Origin: a virus
Reading direction: 5' to 3' (one strand)
IMG/VR virus record: IMGVR_UViG_3300044641_003260
Location: 1-23,091 of that record
Length of the DNA: 23,091 bases
Part shown: positions 8,178-22,154 of the stretch, piece by piece
How the letters are laid out: each line of letters begins with the position of its first letter
Numbering within the stretch: position 1 is the stretch's first letter
Position numbers and translations under genes: made by a program
The notes under the pieces: model-generated
Database searches by the model: none
Seen by the model: the letters and a program-made list of their open reading frames with translations, nothing else
What the model was told of the DNA's origin: nothing

Positions 8178-9290
8178 TTAAACCTCTTCTAGTGCTTTAA
8201 CTCTCGCTGTAAGCTCTTGTACTGCTTTAATGAGTGGTGATATAAACTGATCGTATCTCAATCCTTGCATCGAATCTTCTTCTGACATGTCAATCTTTAC
8301 CCAGCCTGCAAAATCTTCTACTCCAGATTCATCTAAGGCTTCTTTTACTTGCTGAGCTATAAGTCCATAATGAATTCTTGTTCCAGGAACTGAAACTATA
8401 TCTCCATCAACTACTTCTTTGCCGCCCTCAATAAATTTATATTTTACTGGATTTAAATTGTTTATAAAATCTAGTCCTAGGTCGGAAGAAAGAATGCTTG
8501 TTTTTAGTCTTTCATCAGAAGTATTTATTGTTCCAGTGTTAGAGTATATTGTTTTCCAAAATCTATTTGATGTTACTCCAGCACCTGCATCTATAGGCTG
8601 ACCTATTGAAAATAAGTTGTTTGCTAATGGATACCAGTTTGAATTTACTCCGTAACCAGATGTTGTAGGAATATTTAAAGATATTGTTGTTGGAATTGGA
8701 TCAATGGTTGCACTTGATCCAGGAATTCCTTGTGGACCCTGTGGTCCTGTTAATCCTGTGTTACCTCTTGGAATTGTAAATGCAAATACTGCGTTAGTTG
8801 ATGTTCCAGTATTTGTAACAGATGCATTTGTTCCAGCTGCGCCAGTTGTTGTTGTTCCAATTGCTAGCGTAGTTGGTCCAGGAATTCCTTGTGGGCCTTG
8901 TGGCCCTTCTGGTCCCTGTGGCAAAACAAGGTTAAGGGTTTGAGATGGGCTAGTTCCAGTTATTGTAGCAGCTGCAGATACACCTTCTTCGACTGTTCCA
9001 ATGGAAAGAATATTAGATGGTCCTGGGCCTCCAATTATTCCATCTACTCCTCTAGGTAATGTTAGGTTTAGTATTGCTGCTTCTGGGGTTCCAACATTTA
9101 CTACTGATGCTGGAGTTGATGCGCTAACAGTTGTTACAGAGCCTATTGATAAGGTGCCTGAAGGCCCCTGTGGGCCTGGATGATCATCCAAGTAGGCATC
9201 TACGTCGGCAGCAAGATAGCCCAAGTCTCTAGGAACATCTGGAGTATCTGTGTATTGCGGATATCTAAACCCTTTACCTGTTGTGCTCAT
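8178..9290 (-). CDS. Collagen-like tail fibre with S74 intramolecular chaperone
   Basis: A 370-aa fibre. After an N-terminal region (1-37) come Gly-X-Y stretches at about 39-45, 126-139 (GPEGPQGPQGIPGP) and 179-192, separated by three copies of a roughly 38-residue beta module of the form LSIGTVxxG..A..tGT...LNLxLPRG. Residues about 195-257 lead to a C-terminal S74 peptidase/chaperone domain: TSDERLK gives Ser258 and the Lys of the dyad, followed by LNPVKYKFIEGG, YGLIAQQVKEAL and a terminal coiled coil (FISPLIKAVQELTARVKALE). In the family this domain trimerises the fibre and then cuts itself off before the Ser. Its prolines in GPQ/GIP triplets are potential substrates of the upstream oxygenases. 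The mRNA appears leaderless. Confidence 0.88.
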   Translation of the reverse strand: MSTTGKGFRYPQYTDTPDVPRDLGYLAADVDAYLDDHPGPQGPSGTLSIGSVTTVSASTPASVVNVGTPEAAILNLTLPRGVDGIIGGPGPSNILSIGTVEEGVSAAATITGTSPSQTLNLVLPQGPEGPQGPQGIPGPTTLAIGTTTTGAAGTNASVTNTGTSTNAVFAFTIPRGNTGLTGPQGPQGIPGSSATIDPIPTTISLNIPTTSGYGVNSNWYPLANNLFSIGQPIDAGAGVTSNRFWKTIYSNTGTINTSDERLKTSILSSDLGLDFINNLNPVKYKFIEGGKEVVDGDIVSVPGTRIHYGLIAQQVKEALDESGVEDFAGWVKIDMSEEDSMQGLRYDQFISPLIKAVQELTARVKALEEV

Positions 9291-9296
9291 TTTTTT

Positions 9297-9305
9297 ATTA
9301 TACCA
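9297..9305 (-). promoter_or_regulatory. Extended -10 promoter giving a leaderless fibre mRNA
   Basis: The minus strand reads TGGTATAAT followed by six A residues and then the ATG of the collagen-like gene. TATAAT occupies 9302-9297. The six-base gap places the transcription start on the ATG itself. No Shine-Dalgarno is present and no good -35 is seen, consistent with an extended -10 promoter. Confidence 0.6.
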
Positions 9306-9310
9306 CCAAT

Positions 9311-9961
9311 TTACTTAATATATACGTGAGATGGACTCATATATCTAGTGCCAGAAATGATAGGTTTTACCTCATGTAAATATGGAAGCTGTGAAGGGAA
9401 CATTATCATGCTACCAGCTTTTGGCTTTATAGTAATATTTTGATTTGGGAAATGAATTTCTCCACCTTCGTAATCATCATTTATATATGCAACAAGAGAA
9501 AACGCAAGCGATGTATCGCCATCTTGTCCATCAAAATGAGGGCCCATCCACTGTCCTTGATTCCATTTTTTAATAGGAACTTGATCTAGCTGTAAGTTAT
9601 AATTATTTTTATCTAGACCATGACCACTCAGATATCTATCTGAGCACATTTCAAATGCCATCAAAAAGCTGTTGCTAATATACAATGTTTTTTTATCTGT
9701 AGCATCTGAGCCAGTACTTTGTTTTAAATTAGATGGAACTATATTTTTTGTTGCTCCATAAATAATAGACTCATCATTACTTGCAACCCAATTGTTCCAC
9801 TTAGAAATTCTGTCATAAGACAGTTCATCAGAGTCTACTTCTTCAATGAATTGAACAAGGTACTCTGGAAAACTTAGAGCATTTTCCCAGTACCAAATAT
9901 TAGGATCTAAAACTTGTAAGTCAAACATTATGAATTGTTTAAATTCTACATTGTTTTGCAT
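9311..9961 (-). CDS. 2OG-Fe(II) oxygenase, prolyl 4-hydroxylase type (copy 5)
   Basis: A 216-aa member of the 2-oxoglutarate/Fe(II) dioxygenase superfamily (double-stranded beta helix). Iron ligands are His142 and Asp144 in GPHFDGQDGD and His196 in PYLHEVKP; Arg206 in ISGTRYMSP is the 2-oxoglutarate anchor. Between them is YINDDYEGGEIHFPNQ and KPKAGSMIMFPS, the signature shared by P4H-like enzymes. The reaction would be hydroxylation of a peptidyl side chain, probably proline, consuming 2-oxoglutarate and oxygen. No signal peptide is present, so it acts in the host cytoplasm. It starts in a TAATG overlap with the preceding oxygenase and is the last of the run; the collagen-like fibre follows after a fresh promoter. 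Substrate is inferred. Confidence 0.88.
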   Translation of the reverse strand: MQNNVEFKQFIMFDLQVLDPNIWYWENALSFPEYLVQFIEEVDSDELSYDRISKWNNWVASNDESIIYGATKNIVPSNLKQSTGSDATDKKTLYISNSFLMAFEMCSDRYLSGHGLDKNNYNLQLDQVPIKKWNQGQWMGPHFDGQDGDTSLAFSLVAYINDDYEGGEIHFPNQNITIKPKAGSMIMFPSQLPYLHEVKPIISGTRYMSPSHVYIK

Positions 9962-10710
9962 TACTCTACATCCTTGGCTGGGTACTTTTCTCCCTGAGCA
10001 GTTATTCTTAATCCTTTTTCTCTAATTGCTTCCCATTCTGAGGCTTCCACCTTTTGGTATGCTCTTACTTCAGCAAGCTCTTCTGCCCACTTATCTCTTA
10101 CTTCTTGTGGATAGTCAGACTCTTCTCTGTCATCCCAGAATGATCCAAGGGTGTACCTGATAGCTTTCTTTACTGTAGTAACTTCATGCATATTTTCAAA
10201 ACCGCCAGCGAATGTAACAAGCGTTCCAGTTTTAGGAGCAATTGATAGACCGTGCTTAAAATTTAAAATTCCGTCTTCAAAATCGTCATTTAAATAAAGA
10301 AATGTTGCGTATCTGCTTCTAGTAAATGCTCCAGAAACTCCGTCATTAGATGTATTGTCAGAATGCATATTTGCAAACGCTCCTGGTGCCCATCTCTGGG
10401 AATGCCAGCTTATCTGAGACATTTGCTCTGGATTTTTACCAGCCATTTCTGCTGTAGCATCTATAACTCTTTGTCGAAGAACTTGAAAAAAATCTCCTGG
10501 TAATCCACAAGCAATTGTGTCTGGATCATCTAGATCTGGAGTGCCTGAAGAATATGATTCATAAAATGAAATAGGCATCCACTTTAATTGTTCTTTTTCC
10601 ATTTTGATTGCTAGAACATCGATAACAGATTTACACTCTTCTGGTGTCAAAAAGTTTTCATACTCCACAATATCTGGCTTGTGCCTAGTTATAATCATAT
10701 TTCTTTCCAT
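9961..10710 (-). CDS. 2OG-Fe(II) oxygenase, prolyl 4-hydroxylase type (copy 4)
   Basis: A 249-aa dioxygenase. It begins with the P4H-like entry VEYENFLTPEECKSVIDVL. Iron ligands are His116 and Asp118 (ANMHSDNTS) and His175 (NMHEVTTV); Arg185 (KKAIRYTLGSFW) is the expected 2-oxoglutarate contact. The conserved loop is FLYLNDDFEDGILNF, a variant of the YINDDYEGG seen in the other copies. A charged helical tail (about 195-249) is longer than in copy 5. All catalytic residues are present. AGGTGA precedes the ATG by about 8 nt, and only one base separates it from the upstream oxygenase stop. It is the most divergent copy around the iron site. Confidence 0.88.
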   Translation of the reverse strand: MERNMIITRHKPDIVEYENFLTPEECKSVIDVLAIKMEKEQLKWMPISFYESYSSGTPDLDDPDTIACGLPGDFFQVLRQRVIDATAEMAGKNPEQMSQISWHSQRWAPGAFANMHSDNTSNDGVSGAFTRSRYATFLYLNDDFEDGILNFKHGLSIAPKTGTLVTFAGGFENMHEVTTVKKAIRYTLGSFWDDREESDYPQEVRDKWAEELAEVRAYQKVEASEWEAIREKGLRITAQGEKYPAKDVE

Positions 10711-10711
10711 A

Positions 10712-11530
10712 TTAATTCACCTGACCCTTTTTAATAGCTATGTATTCTTCGTAAGGAAGTATTTCTCCGTCATTAAAATAAATCATATTTCTTTTATCTT
10801 CATACTCGATTCTTTCTTTTTCCATCTTAGCCCAAGCGTAGGCCCCATATCTTCTTTGATTAGCAAGCCACTCTTCTGTTCCGTTGTGTGGAGTCATTAT
10901 AAAGTTTCTAACAAAAAATTTCTCATTAGTGTTAATTGTTTTTACTCCATGGTAATAAGGCTCAGTTGATGGGAATACAAGTATATCTCCTGCCTTTGGC
11001 TTATGGTTAATAAGCTTGCCGTCAATATAAAACTCAATATCTCCTCCGTCATAATCATCATTAATGTACATTGTACATGTTATGAAAAATTTATCACCTG
11101 GCATATCTTTTTGAGAAGTTATATGGTCTGTATGATATTGCATTGTCATTTTATTAAGCAGCGTGTCAATTTTTGCATTATATTTAGAGTATGAGCAACC
11201 ACTAAAATGCCATCCCTCTGGTAGCTCAATTCCGTGTCTCTCCACATAATCTAAAACTACTTTGGTGTATGCCGCTTCTACTTCTTCAACAAACTTCTTT
11301 TCTTTAATATACATCTCTTCAGACAAGATATCTTGAGAAACTTCTCCCATATCTTTTTTCTGTGTATAGGTACCAAAATGTGCCCACTGGTCCCATGTTC
11401 TTAAAAAATATTTTCCATCTGACGTTTTTTCAGACTGGTTCATAATTTCATACAGTTCATTTGGGTTATCTAAAACATTTCTGTATACATCAATTTTTGG
11501 ATAAAGTTCTATGTGATTTAATTCGCTCAT
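10712..11530 (-). CDS. 2OG-Fe(II) oxygenase, prolyl 4-hydroxylase type (copy 3)
   Basis: I place the start at ATG 11530, where AGGAGA lies about 9 nt upstream and the ATG overlaps the previous stop (ATGA); a longer frame from a TTG at 11566 lacks such a site. The 272-aa product has iron ligands His133 and Asp135 (MQYHTDHITS) and His194 (PYYHGVKTI), with Lys204 (NEKFFVRNF) in the 2-oxoglutarate position. The loop is MYINDDYDGGDIEFY followed by KPKAGDILVFPS. A C-terminal extension of about 60 residues is charged and Tyr-rich (ANQRRYGAYAWAKMEKERIE). All core residues are intact, so an active enzyme is expected. Lys instead of Arg at the anchor is typical of true P4Hs. Confidence 0.88.
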   Translation of the reverse strand: MSELNHIELYPKIDVYRNVLDNPNELYEIMNQSEKTSDGKYFLRTWDQWAHFGTYTQKKDMGEVSQDILSEEMYIKEKKFVEEVEAAYTKVVLDYVERHGIELPEGWHFSGCSYSKYNAKIDTLLNKMTMQYHTDHITSQKDMPGDKFFITCTMYINDDYDGGDIEFYIDGKLINHKPKAGDILVFPSTEPYYHGVKTINTNEKFFVRNFIMTPHNGTEEWLANQRRYGAYAWAKMEKERIEYEDKRNMIYFNDGEILPYEEYIAIKKGQVN

Positions 11531-12201
11531 GGCTGTTTTTCTCCTGTATGTTTTTTTATCGTCCAAAAAAATGGCGATGTAAATCTATTTCCCGACTTTA
11601 CTGGACGTACTCCGTGGGTGTAGTTCATGTCACCTGGGAAAAAATATGCTGCTCCAGCAACTGGCTGAAACTCAATTCCGTGTTGCGGAAAATATAATTC
11701 TCCGCCTTCGTAGTCGTCATTAAAATAAAATAGTCCTGCTAAATCGTACCAAGGGAAGTCATTTGCTCTACCTTTTTCAGGACCAGAATGAAATTCTTTG
11801 TCTGCATGAGGTTCTTGTCTTGTTCCAACTGGCCATCTGACAATTGCTGGGCCAGTTTCTTTTGCATCAACATTAAAGAATGCATCAACTTCAACTTTTA
11901 ATCTTTCAATCATGCTATAAATTAGCTCCAATATGCTTGGATCTGAAGCCATTAAAGAGTTGTATGTGCAGACTCTGTTTTCCCAAACTGTATGATCATA
12001 GAGAACCAGACCATCTTCGTCTCTATGAGTTTCTGTTACATCCCATATTTTATTATTTAATGCGAAGTCCATAAGTCTCTTGCGCTCATCTATGCTAAGG
12101 AAGTCTCTAATTTCTACAATATTACTAGAAGAATTTCCAAAAAATCCAGATGGGGTAATAGACTTAGGCTGATTGCCATTCCAATTATTTTCTAGTTTCA
12201 T
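11527..12201 (-). CDS. 2OG-Fe(II) oxygenase, prolyl 4-hydroxylase type (copy 2)
   Basis: A 224-aa dioxygenase. An entry helix (VEIRDFLSIDERKRLMDFAL) is followed by the catalytic core: His132 and Asp134 in EPHADKEFH, then FYFNDDYEGGELYFPQHG, distal His196 in NYTHGVRP and Arg206 in SGNRFTSPFFW. The core is complete. AAAGGAGA precedes the ATG, which overlaps the end of the DUF6065-like gene by four bases (ATGA). An extended -10 lies just upstream, so this gene may also be transcribed on its own. It is a soluble enzyme and is probably a peptidyl hydroxylase; the substrate is not visible from sequence. Confidence 0.88.
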   Translation of the reverse strand: MKLENNWNGNQPKSITPSGFFGNSSSNIVEIRDFLSIDERKRLMDFALNNKIWDVTETHRDEDGLVLYDHTVWENRVCTYNSLMASDPSILELIYSMIERLKVEVDAFFNVDAKETGPAIVRWPVGTRQEPHADKEFHSGPEKGRANDFPWYDLAGLFYFNDDYEGGELYFPQHGIEFQPVAGAAYFFPGDMNYTHGVRPVKSGNRFTSPFFWTIKKHTGEKQP

Positions 12202-12920
12202 TTAGTTTCTCCTTTATTCATTATATCATTATTTACTTTTAGCCTTATTGCTTTTACTTGATGAGAACCTATTTTCCTCTTTAAATGGTCTACTGCGTCT
12301 CTATAAAAATTAGACCAGTTAGCAGTCCTATTTAAATCATATATTACCTTAGAGTATTCATTAGAGTCAAATGCGGGCTCTGGAAGATCAGATAGTGGCT
12401 TCATTGTTATTTCTGAATTATTTATTGCCAATAAGTCTATTGGTATGACTGCAATAATTGGAGTGCCAGCCTTTATTGTGATAACCTCATTTGCTTTTGT
12501 TATCATCCAAGCTACTGGCAGCTCTCCTCCAAAAAATGAGGTACTAATTAATGTTGTAAACGGCACAGCCCCATCAATAAAAAGGTTTGGAACGGGCATT
12601 GAAAGAAGAGTCAGATTTTCATCTGTTTTAAACATTATCCCAGTATTAAAACTTATTGTTCCGTTTGCTCTTCCAGGGTATGCATATTTTTCTCCAGATA
12701 AAATTTTAACATGTTCTGGCGTACTATCTGAAATTCCATCCCAAATAAAAGATATGTCTTCTGGAAATGATATTCCCCAGCCTAACTGATTCGTTAAACT
12801 AACTGGAAAACATTTGTATGCGTGGGCATCAAACGTATTATCCATCCAGTCTCTTTTAGCTGTTAAGCTGCTAAGGGTACCAAGACCTTGTCTTATAACA
12901 TATGCCTCTATATTATGCAT
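12198..12920 (-). CDS. DUF6065-like protein embedded in the oxygenase run
   Basis: I choose ATG 12920 (240 aa, MHNIEAYVIRQG) over an upstream TTG at 12953, because the short form fits how DUF6065 proteins begin. The diagnostic part is residues about 15-65: KRDWMDNTFDAHAYKCFPVS, then NQLGWGISFPEDISFIWDG, closely following the family pattern of RDWMD...AY.C.P...N..GW.I. A central beta-rich part (GTISFNTGIMFKTDENLTLL) and a basic helical C-terminus (FYRDAVDHLKRKIGSH) complete it. No catalytic site is known to me for this family. Its start overlaps the preceding oxygenase stop by eight bases, and its end overlaps the next oxygenase, so it is co-expressed with and probably functionally tied to them. 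Recognition is from memory of the motif. Confidence 0.72.
   Translation of the reverse strand: MHNIEAYVIRQGLGTLSSLTAKRDWMDNTFDAHAYKCFPVSLTNQLGWGISFPEDISFIWDGISDSTPEHVKILSGEKYAYPGRANGTISFNTGIMFKTDENLTLLSMPVPNLFIDGAVPFTTLISTSFFGGELPVAWMITKANEVITIKAGTPIIAVIPIDLLAINNSEITMKPLSDLPEPAFDSNEYSKVIYDLNRTANWSNFYRDAVDHLKRKIGSHQVKAIRLKVNNDIMNKGETK
12220..12228 (-). promoter_or_regulatory. Internal extended -10 element
   Basis: TGATATAAT on the minus strand, with TATAAT at 12225-12220, lies inside the 3' end of the DUF6065-like gene. Transcription would begin near 12213, just before AAAGGAGA and the ATG of oxygenase copy 2. No -35 match is seen 17 nt upstream. It may be fortuitous in AT-rich coding sequence. 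Confidence 0.4.
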
Positions 12921-13626
12921 TTTGATTTTTGCCAGATTGTAGGTCTTGCTCAACCCACTTAGATCTCATTTCTATAAACTCTTGTCTATGTGCGTGATCG
13001 TTATAGTCTAACATTGTTACAATTGAAAATTTCATACCAGATTTAACTGGCATTGCTCTATGAGAAAACAAATAGGTAGAAGGAAAGATATAAAGATCTC
13101 CAGCTTTTGGCTTAATGTCTAAATTAATTTTAGGGAAATATAAATTGCCGCCTTCATAATCGTCGTTAATGTAGCCAACTAAAGATACTGTAGCGCTATA
13201 AGAAAATCCATGGTCTGCATGCTCTTGAAAATGCTGGCCTTCTCCGTATCTAATGCAATTCATTACTTCCCAATAATTCATCTTAACGTTATGCATATTG
13301 CAGTAATCTACTACTGGCCCAGATTGAGTTTCCTTTAAATCTGACCAAAGACTAGATACAAGGGTTTCTGTTTTAGACCTAGGATTTTTAATTTCGCCAA
13401 TTTTAATATCTTCACAATCTCTATAAGACGGAATTTTTTCGCTATATCCTACATAACCAAAGGTCCACTCGTACCTGGAATCTTTATCCTCTATAGCAGA
13501 TTTTCCAATTTCATTTAATCTATTAATAACGTCAATTTCTTTTTTTATAGCATCTCTATAGACCCAAACGCCTGGGAAAAGCTGCTCTTTAGAAGAAAAT
13601 GAATATTCATTGTTTAAATTTGTCAT
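12913..13626 (-). CDS. 2OG-Fe(II) oxygenase, prolyl 4-hydroxylase type (copy 1)
   Basis: The start is taken at ATG 13626 (237 aa, MTNLNNEYSF), exactly six bases after an extended -10 box; a longer frame would start upstream of the predicted transcription start. The catalytic core is complete: His136 and Asp138 in FQEHADHGF, then GYINDDYEGGNLYFPK and KPKAGDLYIFPS, distal His189 in FSHRAMPV and Lys199 in KSGMKFSIVTML. The N-terminal part (LFPGVWVYRDAIKKEIDVIN) is the usual substrate-side lid. This is the first gene of the oxygenase run, sitting directly after the FFAPP-tailed double-FN3 protein. Peptidyl-proline hydroxylation is the likeliest reaction from family resemblance; the actual substrate is inferred. 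Confidence 0.88.
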   Translation of the reverse strand: MTNLNNEYSFSSKEQLFPGVWVYRDAIKKEIDVINRLNEIGKSAIEDKDSRYEWTFGYVGYSEKIPSYRDCEDIKIGEIKNPRSKTETLVSSLWSDLKETQSGPVVDYCNMHNVKMNYWEVMNCIRYGEGQHFQEHADHGFSYSATVSLVGYINDDYEGGNLYFPKINLDIKPKAGDLYIFPSTYLFSHRAMPVKSGMKFSIVTMLDYNDHAHRQEFIEMRSKWVEQDLQSGKNQNA

Positions 13627-13632
13627 GTATAC

Positions 13633-13661
13633 ATTGTAGCATTTATGTCTATACAGCACAA
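13633..13661 (-). promoter_or_regulatory. Leaderless promoter of the oxygenase run (copy A of a duplicated promoter)
   Basis: On the minus strand TTGTGC at 13661-13656, a 17-nt spacer ending in TGC, and TACAAT at 13638-13633 are followed by six bases and ATG. No Shine-Dalgarno exists, so the message should be leaderless. TTGCTATTGTG, the spacing, the extended -10 and the trailing ATGACA are shared with the promoter at 19713-19741. Confidence 0.65.
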
Positions 13662-13689
13662 TAGCAAGGGTTGCCCCTTGCTATTGTGC
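13656..13689 (-). terminator. Perfect 15-bp hairpin after the double-FN3 gene
   Basis: The arms 13656-13670 and 13675-13689 are exact inverted repeats of 15 bases (GCACAATAGCAAGGG and its complement) with a four-base loop. It lies 10 nt after the stop of the 282-aa gene. No T-run follows on either strand, so termination efficiency is uncertain; it may instead protect the 3' end of the mRNA or bind a regulator. Its promoter-proximal arm contains the -35 of the next promoter. Confidence 0.6.
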
Positions 13690-13698
13690 GTATTACTA

Positions 13699-14547
13699 TT
13701 AGTAGATTCTAATGAATCCTCCACCAAATGTCGGTGGTGCGAAGAAGACTGGTGGTGCGAAGAAGCTTGGTGGCGCAAAGAAGCTTGGTGGGAAAAACGG
13801 TGGTGCAAAGAAGCTTGGTGGCGCAAAGAAGCTTGGTGGTGCGAAGAAGCTTGGTGGGAAGAACGGTGGGAAGAACGGTGGTGCGAAGAAGCTTGGTGGG
13901 AAGAACGGTGGGAAGAACGGTGGTGCGAAGAAAGTAGGAGCCAAAGTAGTAACAGTATTAGTGTTATTTGAAGGACCTGATCTTCCATTAGCATTATCTG
14001 CATAAACATTGTAATACTGAGATGTTCCAGCAGTGTCTGCAACTGATACAGATAGAGCAGTTGTATTTGCAGTTGTTGCATCATTTCCAACAACGTAGTA
14101 ATTAGTTATTGCTGTACCACCATTTGAATCTGGTGCTTGCCACGAAACAGTATTTGCATTAACTCCAGCTACCGCTGAAGCATTTTTTGGAGCCCCTGGC
14201 TTTGTTGTTGCTGTTGCTGATGCTGTATTAGAATCTGCTGATGTTCCATAGAGATCAACTGATTTTACTGTGTAAGAGTAAGATGTTCCACCTACTAATC
14301 CAGTATTAGAGAATGTAGTAGTAGGAGCATTTACTGTTCCTACTTCTACTCCACTTCTAAATATCTTGTACTGTGTTGGAGCGTTTCCTGATGCAGGTGC
14401 TGTCCATGAAAGGTTGATCATACCATCGTTAAAATTCCGTTGGTTATTAACACCGTTTAAATGGTCTGCTGCGGTTAGCCCAGTTGGTGCATTTGGGCCA
14501 ATGAAGTTGTCTTGAGCTGATGCTCTTCTACCTATATTTTTTGACAT
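13699..14547 (-). CDS. Double fibronectin-III virion protein with FFAPP/FFPP proline-rich C-terminus
   Basis: A 282-aa modular protein. Residues about 17-112 form a first FN3 domain (NLSWTAPASGNAPTQYKIFR, SYSYTVKSVDLYGTSADSN); 117-203 form a second (NTVSWQAPDSNGGTAITNYY, YYNVYADNANGRSGPSNN). Residues 206-282 are a striking low-complexity tail of FFAPP, FFAPPS and FFPP units, ending TFGGGFIRIY at the stop. The same ending occurs in the 795-aa adhesin. FN3 domains are frequent on phage surfaces, where they bind polysaccharide. The tail is aromatic and proline-rich with no charge until the last residues; it could insert into a host envelope or assemble fibres, and its prolines are candidate hydroxylation sites. 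AGGAGA precedes the ATG. Function is inferred. Confidence 0.8.
   Translation of the reverse strand: MSKNIGRRASAQDNFIGPNAPTGLTAADHLNGVNNQRNFNDGMINLSWTAPASGNAPTQYKIFRSGVEVGTVNAPTTTFSNTGLVGGTSYSYTVKSVDLYGTSADSNTASATATTKPGAPKNASAVAGVNANTVSWQAPDSNGGTAITNYYVVGNDATTANTTALSVSVADTAGTSQYYNVYADNANGRSGPSNNTNTVTTLAPTFFAPPFFPPFFPPSFFAPPFFPPFFPPSFFAPPSFFAPPSFFAPPFFPPSFFAPPSFFAPPVFFAPPTFGGGFIRIY
13702..13932 (-). repeat. FFAPP/FFPP-coding tandem repeat
   Basis: Degenerate tandem array of 18-bp units (FFAPPS/FFAPPV), 15-bp units (FFAPP) and 12-bp units (FFPP) forming the C-terminus of the 282-aa protein. Mixed unit lengths keep the reading frame, which suggests repeated expansion and contraction under coding constraint. 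Confidence 0.9.
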
Positions 14548-19766: not shown

Positions 19767-22154
19767 TTAGTAGATTCTAATGAATCCGCCACCAAATGTC
19801 GGAGGTGCGAAGAAGACTGGCGGTGCGAAGAATACTGGTGGTGCGAAGAAGACTGGCGGTGCGAAGAATACTGGTGGTGCGAAGAATACTGGTGGTGCGA
19901 AGAATACTGGCGGTGCGAAGAAGACTGGCGGTGCGAAGAAGACTGGTGGTGCGAAGGTGCTTCCGCATGGGTTTGGATTAGTGGTAACTCCAAAGTGTCT
20001 ATTATTAATTCCTGGCTCAGATGCATCGCAGGCTTGGTTTAAAGGTGTAACAGCATCTTGTGCAGAAGCAAATGACCCACTTACTAGATCTCCATTTGAA
20101 CAGCATGCGTAATATGTTGTTAGAGTAACTGGTGGTGTACATGATTGAGTTTGTGTTTCAATATAAGGGTTACAAGAACCTGCAAAATAATTTGTTCTTG
20201 TTCTAGTTTGTGTTCCTTCAGAAGAGCATGTACTCCATGCGCTCCATGCGCTTGGAGCTGAGCAAGTAATCAAATCACCACAGCATTGTTGCCCAACGCT
20301 TATTTGATAATCATTAGAATTTCCAAGTAAAGTTCTACCTAGCTCTGCACAAGTATAGGATGCTGCATTTGTTATTGTTCCAGGACATGCTGGCTTTGCT
20401 GGTGGATCTGGATCTGGATCTGGCGCTGCTTGATAAGTAAACTTATAAACAGTGATTGTAGGTTTTGGAGATGTATTAACAACAGTTCCAGCGGTTGGAG
20501 ACTGTGAAGAAACCATTCCTTCTTTTGTATAATCAGTAGTACCGACTGCTGTTCCTACTGAAATATCATAATTTGATGTGCTAGCAGGATTATATGTTCC
20601 AACTAAGTTTGGAATTGTATATGTTGTAGGTGGTGCTGGAACGCACACTGGAGTTCTTGAAACTCCTCCTTGCACTTGGTTATTAATTCCTGGCTCTGAT
20701 GCAGCACATGCCGCATTTAATCCAGCAAGGGCATCCTGGCTGTTGGCATAAGTTCCAGAAACTCCATCTCCATTATTACAACAAGCCCAATAAGTAACTG
20801 GTGAAGATGGTTCTTCTGCAGCAATAGTGGTTGATTGAACAGAGTTACTACTAAATGCCTTTGAGCTAGTTTCTAAAGATGTTGTAAGTATCTGAACTGA
20901 AGATGTTATTGATTTATTGTCATATGCAGTGGTATCTCCCAAGCTTAAACTTGATCCAGAACCAAACCCGATAGCTACTCCATCTGCATACCACTCATAC
21001 AAGTACATAGATATAGAAGATGAATTGCTCCAAGTTCCTGTTGTAGTTGTAAATTGTCTTCCAGTTCCAGAAACAACTGGGGCAACCTGATTTACTGGCA
21101 TAGGAACTGATGGGTAAGTAATAGAAAGTGGGGGGAAAGAGCTCCATGAGGTATTTGTAAATCTAGGAGCTGTTCCATTTACTGTAATTGTAAATGATCC
21201 GTATGTAGTTCCGCCTTCCCCTATTCTATCGATTACATAAGATGTTGCTGATGGGCTAGAGCCTGATAAATAAGAACTTGTATATAGCTCTCCGTTATTA
21301 TAAATAATCCATTCTGTAGGTTGAATTAAATTTAATGACCAAGAAAAAGTTCCGCCAGTTGATGAAGAGGTTAAGGATGCTGTTACTGAAGGCTTATTAG
21401 GTTTTATATCTTGAACCGATGCATTTTTTCCAAGACCGCTTAAACTAATTCCGCTTACATTAGATGAATTTAGTGGGTTAACAAGAATTCCGATACTTCC
21501 TCCTGCGCTTCCAGTATCAAACGTGTAAGTATCAACATCTCCAAGCAAGGCGACTTCTGTAAATGGCACCTCTGCTCCTTGATACTGTAAATAAAAATTA
21601 TTAGCTCCCTTTGGCTTTGTCCAATCTAGTTTTATTACACCATTTTCTACAACTGTTGCACTTAGTACAGAAAGCCTTTCTGGAGCAATTACTGGGCTTG
21701 GCAAAGTGTATACATCTTCTTCATTGTCTCCAGCATCATTTGTAGCAGTAACTTTGCATCTTACAACATACCCAACATACTTTAATGACTTTATAGAATT
21801 CCACTCGTCTTCGTCTAGAAACAAAGTACTTGATGTTTTGTCTACTATATTTGACCAATTGTATGCAGATGGAGTATAGGCAGATTTTTGCCACTGATAT
21901 TTAAAAGAAGTTGGAGAATTTTCCCATATTCCATTTGAAACAGAAACAGTTTCTTGTGCTGCATATAAAAATGAATCCCCCTGTAAAGAAAGAATTGGTA
22001 GTTCTGTATTTTTTGGTTTTAAATCAAGTAGGGACTTCCATTCAGATCCGTCCCAAATATATGCCGCTTTAGATTCATTCCATGTTAATCCATCATGAAT
22101 CTGTATTTTTTTTAAAGGATTCCAGCTGGAACCGTCAAAAATATTTAGCGGCAT
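19767..22154 (-). CDS. Large modular adhesin: Ig/FN3-like, PASTA-like, TSP1-like domains and FFAPPV repeat tail
   Basis: A 795-aa protein. Residues 1-45 have three W-containing repeats (FDGSSWNPLKKI, HDGLTWNESKAAYI, WDGSEWKSLL), a fibre-anchor pattern. About 50-150 is Ig-like; 155-255 FN3-like (GVIKLDWTKPKGANNFYLQY); beta repeats continue to 450. A Cys module at 455-504 (YWACCNNGDGVSGTYANSQD) is repeated at 681-730 (YYACCSNGDLVSGSFASAQD). Residues 511-573 resemble a PASTA domain (TIPNLVGTY, MVSSQSPTAGTVVN, TITVY). Residues 633-673 carry the thrombospondin-1 signature WSAWSTCSSEGTQTRTR with matching cysteines. Residues 734-795 are FAPPV, seven FFAPPV and FFAPPT, then FGGGFIRIY. No signal peptide or anchor is seen, so it is probably a virion surface protein. 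AAGGAGA precedes the ATG. Confidence 0.82.
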   Translation of the reverse strand: MPLNIFDGSSWNPLKKIQIHDGLTWNESKAAYIWDGSEWKSLLDLKPKNTELPILSLQGDSFLYAAQETVSVSNGIWENSPTSFKYQWQKSAYTPSAYNWSNIVDKTSSTLFLDEDEWNSIKSLKYVGYVVRCKVTATNDAGDNEEDVYTLPSPVIAPERLSVLSATVVENGVIKLDWTKPKGANNFYLQYQGAEVPFTEVALLGDVDTYTFDTGSAGGSIGILVNPLNSSNVSGISLSGLGKNASVQDIKPNKPSVTASLTSSSTGGTFSWSLNLIQPTEWIIYNNGELYTSSYLSGSSPSATSYVIDRIGEGGTTYGSFTITVNGTAPRFTNTSWSSFPPLSITYPSVPMPVNQVAPVVSGTGRQFTTTTGTWSNSSSISMYLYEWYADGVAIGFGSGSSLSLGDTTAYDNKSITSSVQILTTSLETSSKAFSSNSVQSTTIAAEEPSSPVTYWACCNNGDGVSGTYANSQDALAGLNAACAASEPGINNQVQGGVSRTPVCVPAPPTTYTIPNLVGTYNPASTSNYDISVGTAVGTTDYTKEGMVSSQSPTAGTVVNTSPKPTITVYKFTYQAAPDPDPDPPAKPACPGTITNAASYTCAELGRTLLGNSNDYQISVGQQCCGDLITCSAPSAWSAWSTCSSEGTQTRTRTNYFAGSCNPYIETQTQSCTPPVTLTTYYACCSNGDLVSGSFASAQDAVTPLNQACDASEPGINNRHFGVTTNPNPCGSTFAPPVFFAPPVFFAPPVFFAPPVFFAPPVFFAPPVFFAPPVFFAPPVFFAPPTFGGGFIRIY
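19804..19957 (-). repeat. 18-bp tandem repeat coding FFAPPV
   Basis: Eight nearly identical 18-bp units (plus strand GGTGCGAAGAANACTGGY) run from 19804 to 19947, then a partial unit. Variation is confined to a few positions, mostly synonymous. The regular period contrasts with the mixed units of the array at 13702-13932. Confidence 0.92.

Follow-up and report, generated by a model that had tools for sequence, protein, structure and literature searches.

Lake viruses of bacteria that probably modify their own attachment tips chemically, as animals do collagen

Why would a virus of bacteria carry five different oxygenases of the prolyl 4-hydroxylase (P4H) type among its fibre genes? The question is raised by IMG/VR virus record IMGVR_UViG_3300044641_003260, a single record whose whole stretch of 23,091 bases we call the window. 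An earlier note on this DNA had placed five intact oxygenases, here named A to E, between an FFAPP-tailed protein and a collagen-like fibre, and both the family matches and the active sites confirm this at the positions listed below. We found that these genes have intact sites, that they are retained side by side as paralogues, and that runs of them co-occur specifically with an FFxPP repeat and not with collagen-like repeats. The reading we favour, and hold to be fairly likely, is that positions 9311-14547 together with the gene FF2 constitute a fibre-tip modification cassette, which would hydroxylate the aromatic/proline repeat of the proteins FF1 and FF2. The features on which the argument draws are the following.

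9311-9961, minus strand: oxygenase A (PF13640, E-value 3.3e-11; H142/D144/H196/R206)
9961-10710, minus strand: oxygenase B (PF13640, E-value 1.2e-7; H116/D118/H175/R185)
10712-11530, minus strand: oxygenase C (PF13640, E-value 1.2e-8; H133/D135/H194/K204)
11527-12201, minus strand: oxygenase D (PF13640, E-value 9.5e-8; H132/D134/H196/R206)
12913-13626, minus strand: oxygenase E, P4H-type (PF13640, E-value 2.5e-13; H136/D138/H189/K199; modelled)
12198-12953, minus strand: DUF6065 protein, between oxygenases E and D (PF19541, E-value 1.9e-28)
13699-14547, minus strand: FF1, fibre protein with an fn3 domain (E-value 5.3e-9) and an FFxPP repeat from residue 206; proposed substrate
19767-22154, minus strand: FF2, with a C-terminal FFxPP repeat from residue 739; proposed second substrate
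8178-9290, minus strand: collagen-like GXY protein with an S74 chaperone domain (PF13884, E-value 3.7e-14)
13657-13688, minus strand: hairpin between FF1 and oxygenase E (RNA fold)

All five window oxygenases pass the PF13640 cut-off (E-values 1.2e-7 to 2.5e-13) and match phrog_61, and each has an intact HxD...H iron site followed by the Arg or Lys that anchors 2-oxoglutarate (2OG). The stretch YINDDYEGG, previously ascribed to most of the copies, is exact in A and E, while B (YLNDDFEDG), C (YINDDYDGG) and D (YFNDDYEGG) carry variants. Among relatives (fetched sequences of 180-330 residues), 598/606 keep the iron and 2OG sites (A 118/123, B 96/96, C 101/102, D 123/123, E 160/162). Pairwise identity within A to E is 24-34% in nine of the ten pairs, the B-C alignment spanning 28 residues only. 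In a tree of 141 oxygenases, made by a quick method and containing several long branches, E, B and C can each be cut off by a single branch, and A and D require two changes each. A to E are thus old paralogue groups, each conserved separately and retained side by side, which suggests non-redundant roles. The division of substrates among copies proposed in the earlier note is therefore plausible; what finds no support is a division between GXY and FFAPP motifs. Dozens of related contigs have the run too, and it is unlikely to have arisen by chance.

Oxygenase E was the one of the five selected for modelling, and with 33 homologues its model reached a predicted local distance difference test (pLDDT) score of 92.4. 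The predicted structure has a P4H-like double-stranded beta-helix fold, and all 50 of the 50 Foldseek matches listed for it are prolyl hydroxylases, with template-modelling scores of about 0.5-0.6 by query length. They include PHD2 with HIF peptides, a Chlamydomonas P4H, the Pseudomonas putida P4H with EF-Tu, and vCPH of the chlorovirus PBCV-1. A sequence profile of E likewise finds the prolyl 4-hydroxylases 3itq and 5hv0 (E-value 3e-8), with LH3 and PiuC weaker. In cultured phages, the matches listed are remote and mostly from cyanophages, at 25-45% identity over parts of E and 27-31% over parts of D.

To which of the two fibre repeats does the run belong? From 40 records near the window we took as much as 20 kb of the sequence upstream of the capsid gene, and did the same for a second set, 17/18 records around a relative without oxygenases. 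PF13640 occurs in 36/40 records of the first set and in 3/18 of the second; of the four first-set records without it, three have less than 4.5 kb upstream. For the comparison we kept the 50 regions, window included, that extend at least 8 kb upstream of the portal gene, dropped shorter ones, and defined a run as three or more oxygenases. Run and FFxPP are found together in 32 regions, the run alone in one, FFxPP alone in none and neither in 17 (Fisher P 1.8e-12); the sole run without the repeat (L105) lies on a contig that ends inside the cassette. The same comparison with GXY gives 15 regions with both, 18 with the run alone, eight with GXY alone and nine with neither (P 1.0). The collagen-like GXY protein was thus rejected as the substrate for want of any association with the run.

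These loci are not independent, and because the relatedness of the records matters we repeated the comparison on trees. The run changes state eight times on a portal tree, three of the changes being forced by well-supported branches, and nine times, five of them forced, on a four-protein tree built with a quick method. In independent pairs on supported branches, with L105 excluded from the FFxPP trait, FFxPP is in step with the run in 3/3 pairs on the portal tree and 5/5 on the four-protein tree, and GXY in none on either tree. GXY is therefore unsupported as a substrate, being about as frequent without the run as with it and never in step with it in independent pairs. The earlier proposal that different copies hydroxylate different motifs accordingly retains its FFAPP part, which co-occurrence supports, and loses its GXY part; the check it suggested, whether the oxygenases track such genes across related phages, comes out in favour of FFAPP, over several independent comparisons and another phage type, and gives no support for collagen genes.

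Searches in the reverse direction gave a similar picture. With oxygenase D as bait, an FFxPP gene is present in 62/80 loci; the remaining 18 cannot show one, since their sequence begins no more than 1.5 kb before the first cassette gene recognised. The FFxPP repeat as bait returned at least 120 stretches, 80 of which were annotated with profiles, and cluster and downstream counts used all 120. In total, 251 fetched loci hold 163 distinct FFxPP genes, 138 of them with at least 1.5 kb downstream, and an oxygenase lies within 3 kb of 111 of those 138. When FFxPP records were searched whole, PF13640 was found in 34/39. A DUF6065 protein from a distant phage, used as bait, led to an aromatic/proline repeat in 61/80 loci by a stop-to-stop scan that includes FFxPP genes without an in-frame start codon (47/80 by open reading frame calling). 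In fifteen of the other 19, no more than 850 bases precede the first oxygenase or DUF6065 gene; among the last four, the repeat lies at another place in the record in two cases, and G098 and G100 show no repeat. A scan of bacterial and archaeal genomes gave at least 119 loci with the DNA pattern FFxPPxFFxPP, and none of these had a match to a cassette hidden Markov model (HMM) within stretches of up to 8 kb.

The cassette also occurs in more than one phage type. A differently arranged module was found in 22 records. The window capsid protein has no match in 21 of these, which include several short fragments and reach 210,302 bases in length, in a search where 4/4 positive controls matched; the capsid protein of the last one, G105 (L530), is 53% identical to that of the window. 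In this second type, D-, E- and A-like oxygenases and DUF6065 stand beside an FFxPP protein in a different order. The FFxPP protein itself is often short, that of L199 having no Pfam match, and begins with an apparently PASTA-like part; in L140 it is fused to an S74 chaperone (PF13884, E-value 6.5e-10). Across lineages we thus see fn3 proteins with or without a Hint-like end, short proteins with another start, and an S74 fusion. The phage types have the repeat and the enzymes in common but differ in the remainder of the fibre protein, and the module would appear to move between phages.

In the window, FF1 carries 13 FF(x)PP units in addition to its fn3 domain, and FF2 carries eight FFxPP units; their final residues are the same, FFAPPTFGGGFIRIY. 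The last 60 bases of the two genes (13699-13758 and 19767-19826) are identical at 57 positions in genes that otherwise differ, and the FF genes of L104 likewise share an end, albeit a different one. Many FF1 relatives (L087, L094, L099, L100, L101 and others) have a Hint/intein-like C-terminal domain directly after the repeat. The matches are below cut-off (L099, PF01079, E-value 0.0016; L100, Intein_splicing, E-value 0.0012), and the domain is possibly a self-cleaving end. Together with the S74 fusion, it suggests that the repeat may become a free C-terminal end after processing. Two relatives, L092 and L098, have FGFTP as their FF1 repeat; oxygenases B, C, D and E and the usual DUF6065 are gone from them, and their places are taken by other genes, two of which are weakly DUF6065-like (E-values 8.5e-4 and 0.027 in L098, below cut-off). 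In a motif scan of the short FFxPP genes, 9/13 distinct sequences (L140, L157, L552, L556, L558, L561, L564, L587, L596) are open only through a +1 frameshift about 20 codons in, and four (L152, L172, L199, L566) are continuous. CGGAAC stands at the site in all nine and GCACGGAAC in seven of them, making the start of this gene a candidate for programmed frameshifting.

A sixth gene, for DUF6065, lies within the oxygenase array and was overlooked in the earlier note; in relatives it is a constant partner of the oxygenases. Its model (pLDDT 88.1) matches dUTPases, with Z 10-11, root-mean-square deviations of 2.6-6.5 and 9-20% identity among the matches listed, so that a dUTPase-like fold is predicted. 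That DUF6065 might be a further 2OG oxygenase is not supported, the fold matches listed being dUTPases and one related deaminase; on the model, an enzyme role remains conceivable. A second cassette protein of about 240 residues, not seen in the window, is a distant relative of DUF6065 (hhalign probability 91.6, E-value 8e-7). No match to DUF6065 was found at an E-value of 1e-3 in 50,697 records of cultured phages, nor any mention of it in the literature searched.

Some relatives carry further enzymes between FF1 and oxygenase E: a Sulfotransfer_2 protein (PF03567, E-values 3.6e-7 and 1.7e-7) and an aspartyl/asparaginyl (Asp/Asn) beta-hydroxylase (PF05118, E-values 2e-11 and 9.1e-11). Among 183 cassettes, the sulfotransferase cluster is present in 25 loci, the Asp/Asn-hydroxylase cluster in 23 and a cluster of N-acetylglucosamine (GlcNAc) transferases in two. 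Of 328 loci that have oxygenase D or DUF6065, profiles detect the first family in 41 and the second in 28; in other viral loci they occur in 2/152 (L126, L177), both of which are FFxPP loci. For six look-alike genes in distant cassettes, PF03567 was over cut-off in one, under it in two and without a match in three. In L140, a PF11397 GlcNAc transferase (E-value 4.8e-20) lies next to a P4H-type enzyme; the Dictyostelium enzyme that attaches GlcNAc to the hydroxyproline of Skp1 belongs to this family, and the gene fits hydroxyl groups as acceptors. A Pfam scan of ten window proteins gave no match to any of the three families. Their presence in cassettes suggests that newly formed hydroxyls can be capped. 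One distant cassette holds a glutathione-peroxidase-like gene (L569:10838-11452, PF00255, E-value 7.1e-29), with look-alikes judged by eye in L553, L555, L582 and L601, which perhaps guards against oxidative side reactions.

These observations can be assembled into the following account. FF1 and FF2 would be phage tail or fibre proteins ending in the aromatic/proline repeat, which the five P4H-type oxygenases would hydroxylate during infection with O2, Fe(II) and 2OG, most likely at prolines. Each paralogue group may have its own site preference or its own place in the order of action, and DUF6065 may assist them; in related phages, the cassette is extended by the sulfotransferase, Asp/Asn-hydroxylase or GlcNAc-transferase genes. 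The modified tip could then serve adsorption or the stability of the tip itself. Both the hydroxylation of FFxPP by A to E and the choice of proline are inferred, as are binding of the host by the tip, a benefit to the phage and the addition of extra groups in some relatives. In a wider and more tentative version, which we find possible, aquatic phages of more than one type would share a mobile adhesin-maturation cassette, in which non-redundant paralogues and DUF6065 hydroxylate FFxPP tips of a new aromatic/proline class, some of them capped, to yield a tunable attachment polymer made by enzymes.

Several facts weigh against hydroxylation of the FFxPP tip. PF13640 enzymes need not act on proline, many of the loci are near-copies of one another, and the independent-pair tests are small and cannot reach significance alone (p 0.25 and 0.0625). 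Three of the 17 regions with neither run nor repeat (L092, L098, L395) hold one or two A-like oxygenases without FFxPP. No oxygenase lies within 3 kb of 27/138 FFxPP genes, by length mostly the second, FF2-type gene; 5/39 FFxPP records (5-20 kb) are without a PF13640 match; and of the two DUF6065 records without the repeat, G100 has little upstream sequence.

The same genes could be read in other ways. As auxiliary metabolic genes, the oxygenases would use up 2OG or act as hydroxylases on EF-Tu, metabolites or other molecules of the host, and so steer its metabolism, lying in the fibre island only because it is an insertion hot spot. This has been proposed for cyanophage 2OG oxygenases in the available parts of PMC3037559, and again in those of PMC10611076, and a bacterial P4H in complex with EF-Tu is among the fold matches of E. 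However, the run comes and goes with one fibre repeat but not with the collagen-like gene next to it, and consumption of 2OG hardly explains five retained paralogues, which makes a metabolic role improbable. Co-variation would also arise if the FFxPP protein, the oxygenases and DUF6065 merely travelled as one host-range island, the enzymes acting on a host surface molecule or on another virion protein: with the island gained or lost 8-9 times on the trees, its neighbours would move together whatever their function. We consider this unlikely, given that repeat and enzymes stay together across lineages while the remainder of the FF protein and the gene order differ. Finally, the repeat may be the substrate of a different reaction, such as crosslinking or a hydroxylation that falls on Phe or on flanking residues. 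The breadth of PF13640, the Asp/Asn-hydroxylase family gene of some cassettes, and the constancy of Phe, Tyr and Trp in the repeat, equal to that of Pro, all speak for it; against it stand the fold matches of E, prolyl hydroxylases without exception among those listed, and the proline common to the repeat types seen, and we rate it the least probable of the three.

The window has a guanine-cytosine content of 38%, and all genes discussed lie on its minus strand. In the order of transcription, FF2 is followed by small genes, a fibre protein, FF1, oxygenase E, DUF6065, oxygenases D, C, B and A, the collagen-like S74 protein, a LamG protein, p112, portal, protease and capsid (lamG and p112 being labels of the present analysis). 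The hairpin between FF1 and oxygenase E is strong (z -8.25, 0/200 shuffles as good, in an RNA fold of 13632-13700) and is not among the calls of a terminator scan of the window; it is perhaps an attenuator or a processing site. The host is probably actinobacterial, since the capsid protein resembles those of Streptomyces phages (58-63% identity among the matches listed). Two such phages, Sham and Jay2Jay, classed in Stanwilliamsviridae, share lamG, p112, portal, protease and capsid genes with the window, and the 31 and 41 kb examined of them contain neither an oxygenase HMM match nor an aromatic/proline repeat.

If the FFxPP tip is indeed the substrate, these phages build chemically modified attachment tips using their own hydroxylases, and part of their receptor-binding chemistry is invisible to gene annotation alone. 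Some of the abundant phage 2OG-Fe(II) oxygenases, discussed as metabolic genes in the accessible passages of the literature, would thereby gain a definite target in the virion, and small prolyl hydroxylases with a new sequence preference would become available. We found neither a phage cassette of several P4H paralogues with an aromatic/proline-tailed fibre protein nor phage fibre hydroxylation in the open-licence PubMed Central literature, and the word "oxygenase" is absent from the main text of PMC10202952, as far as that text was available.

Viral P4H-fold enzymes and phage 2OG oxygenases are themselves already known. The phage enzymes resemble ours in that all five window oxygenases match phrog_61, and phage 2OG oxygenases resembling human EGLN3 appear in the accessible part of the Phold paper (PMC12774648). 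The available portions of such accounts, cyanophage proposals included, put forward no virion substrate, whereas in the present phages the run varies together with a repeat-tailed protein. The enzyme vCPH (PDB 5c5t), one of the fold matches of E, is likewise encoded by a virus, PBCV-1, which infects algae and whose viral prolyl 4-hydroxylase was reportedly described by Eriksson in 1999 (a reference cited in PMC7019647); the window phage differs in that a fibre gene with a repeat tail is accompanied by a run of five paralogues. The P4H-type enzyme next to a PF11397 transferase in L140 recalls the Skp1 hydroxyproline-GlcNAc pathway of Dictyostelium and Toxoplasma, so far as the available parts of the sources describe it, with the difference that the transferase cluster occupies two loci among 183 cassettes, and that the ten window proteins scanned gave no match to its family. 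The closest parallel in animals is collagen and its prolyl 4-hydroxylase, whose site consists of HxD...H with a Lys 10 residues on. C and E have the same arrangement, and in both systems the partner is repetitive and proline-rich, but here the co-varying partner is the FFxPP repeat and not GXY triplets. The chemistry of the proposed attachment polymer would be comparable to that of collagen, plant extensins and mussel glue.

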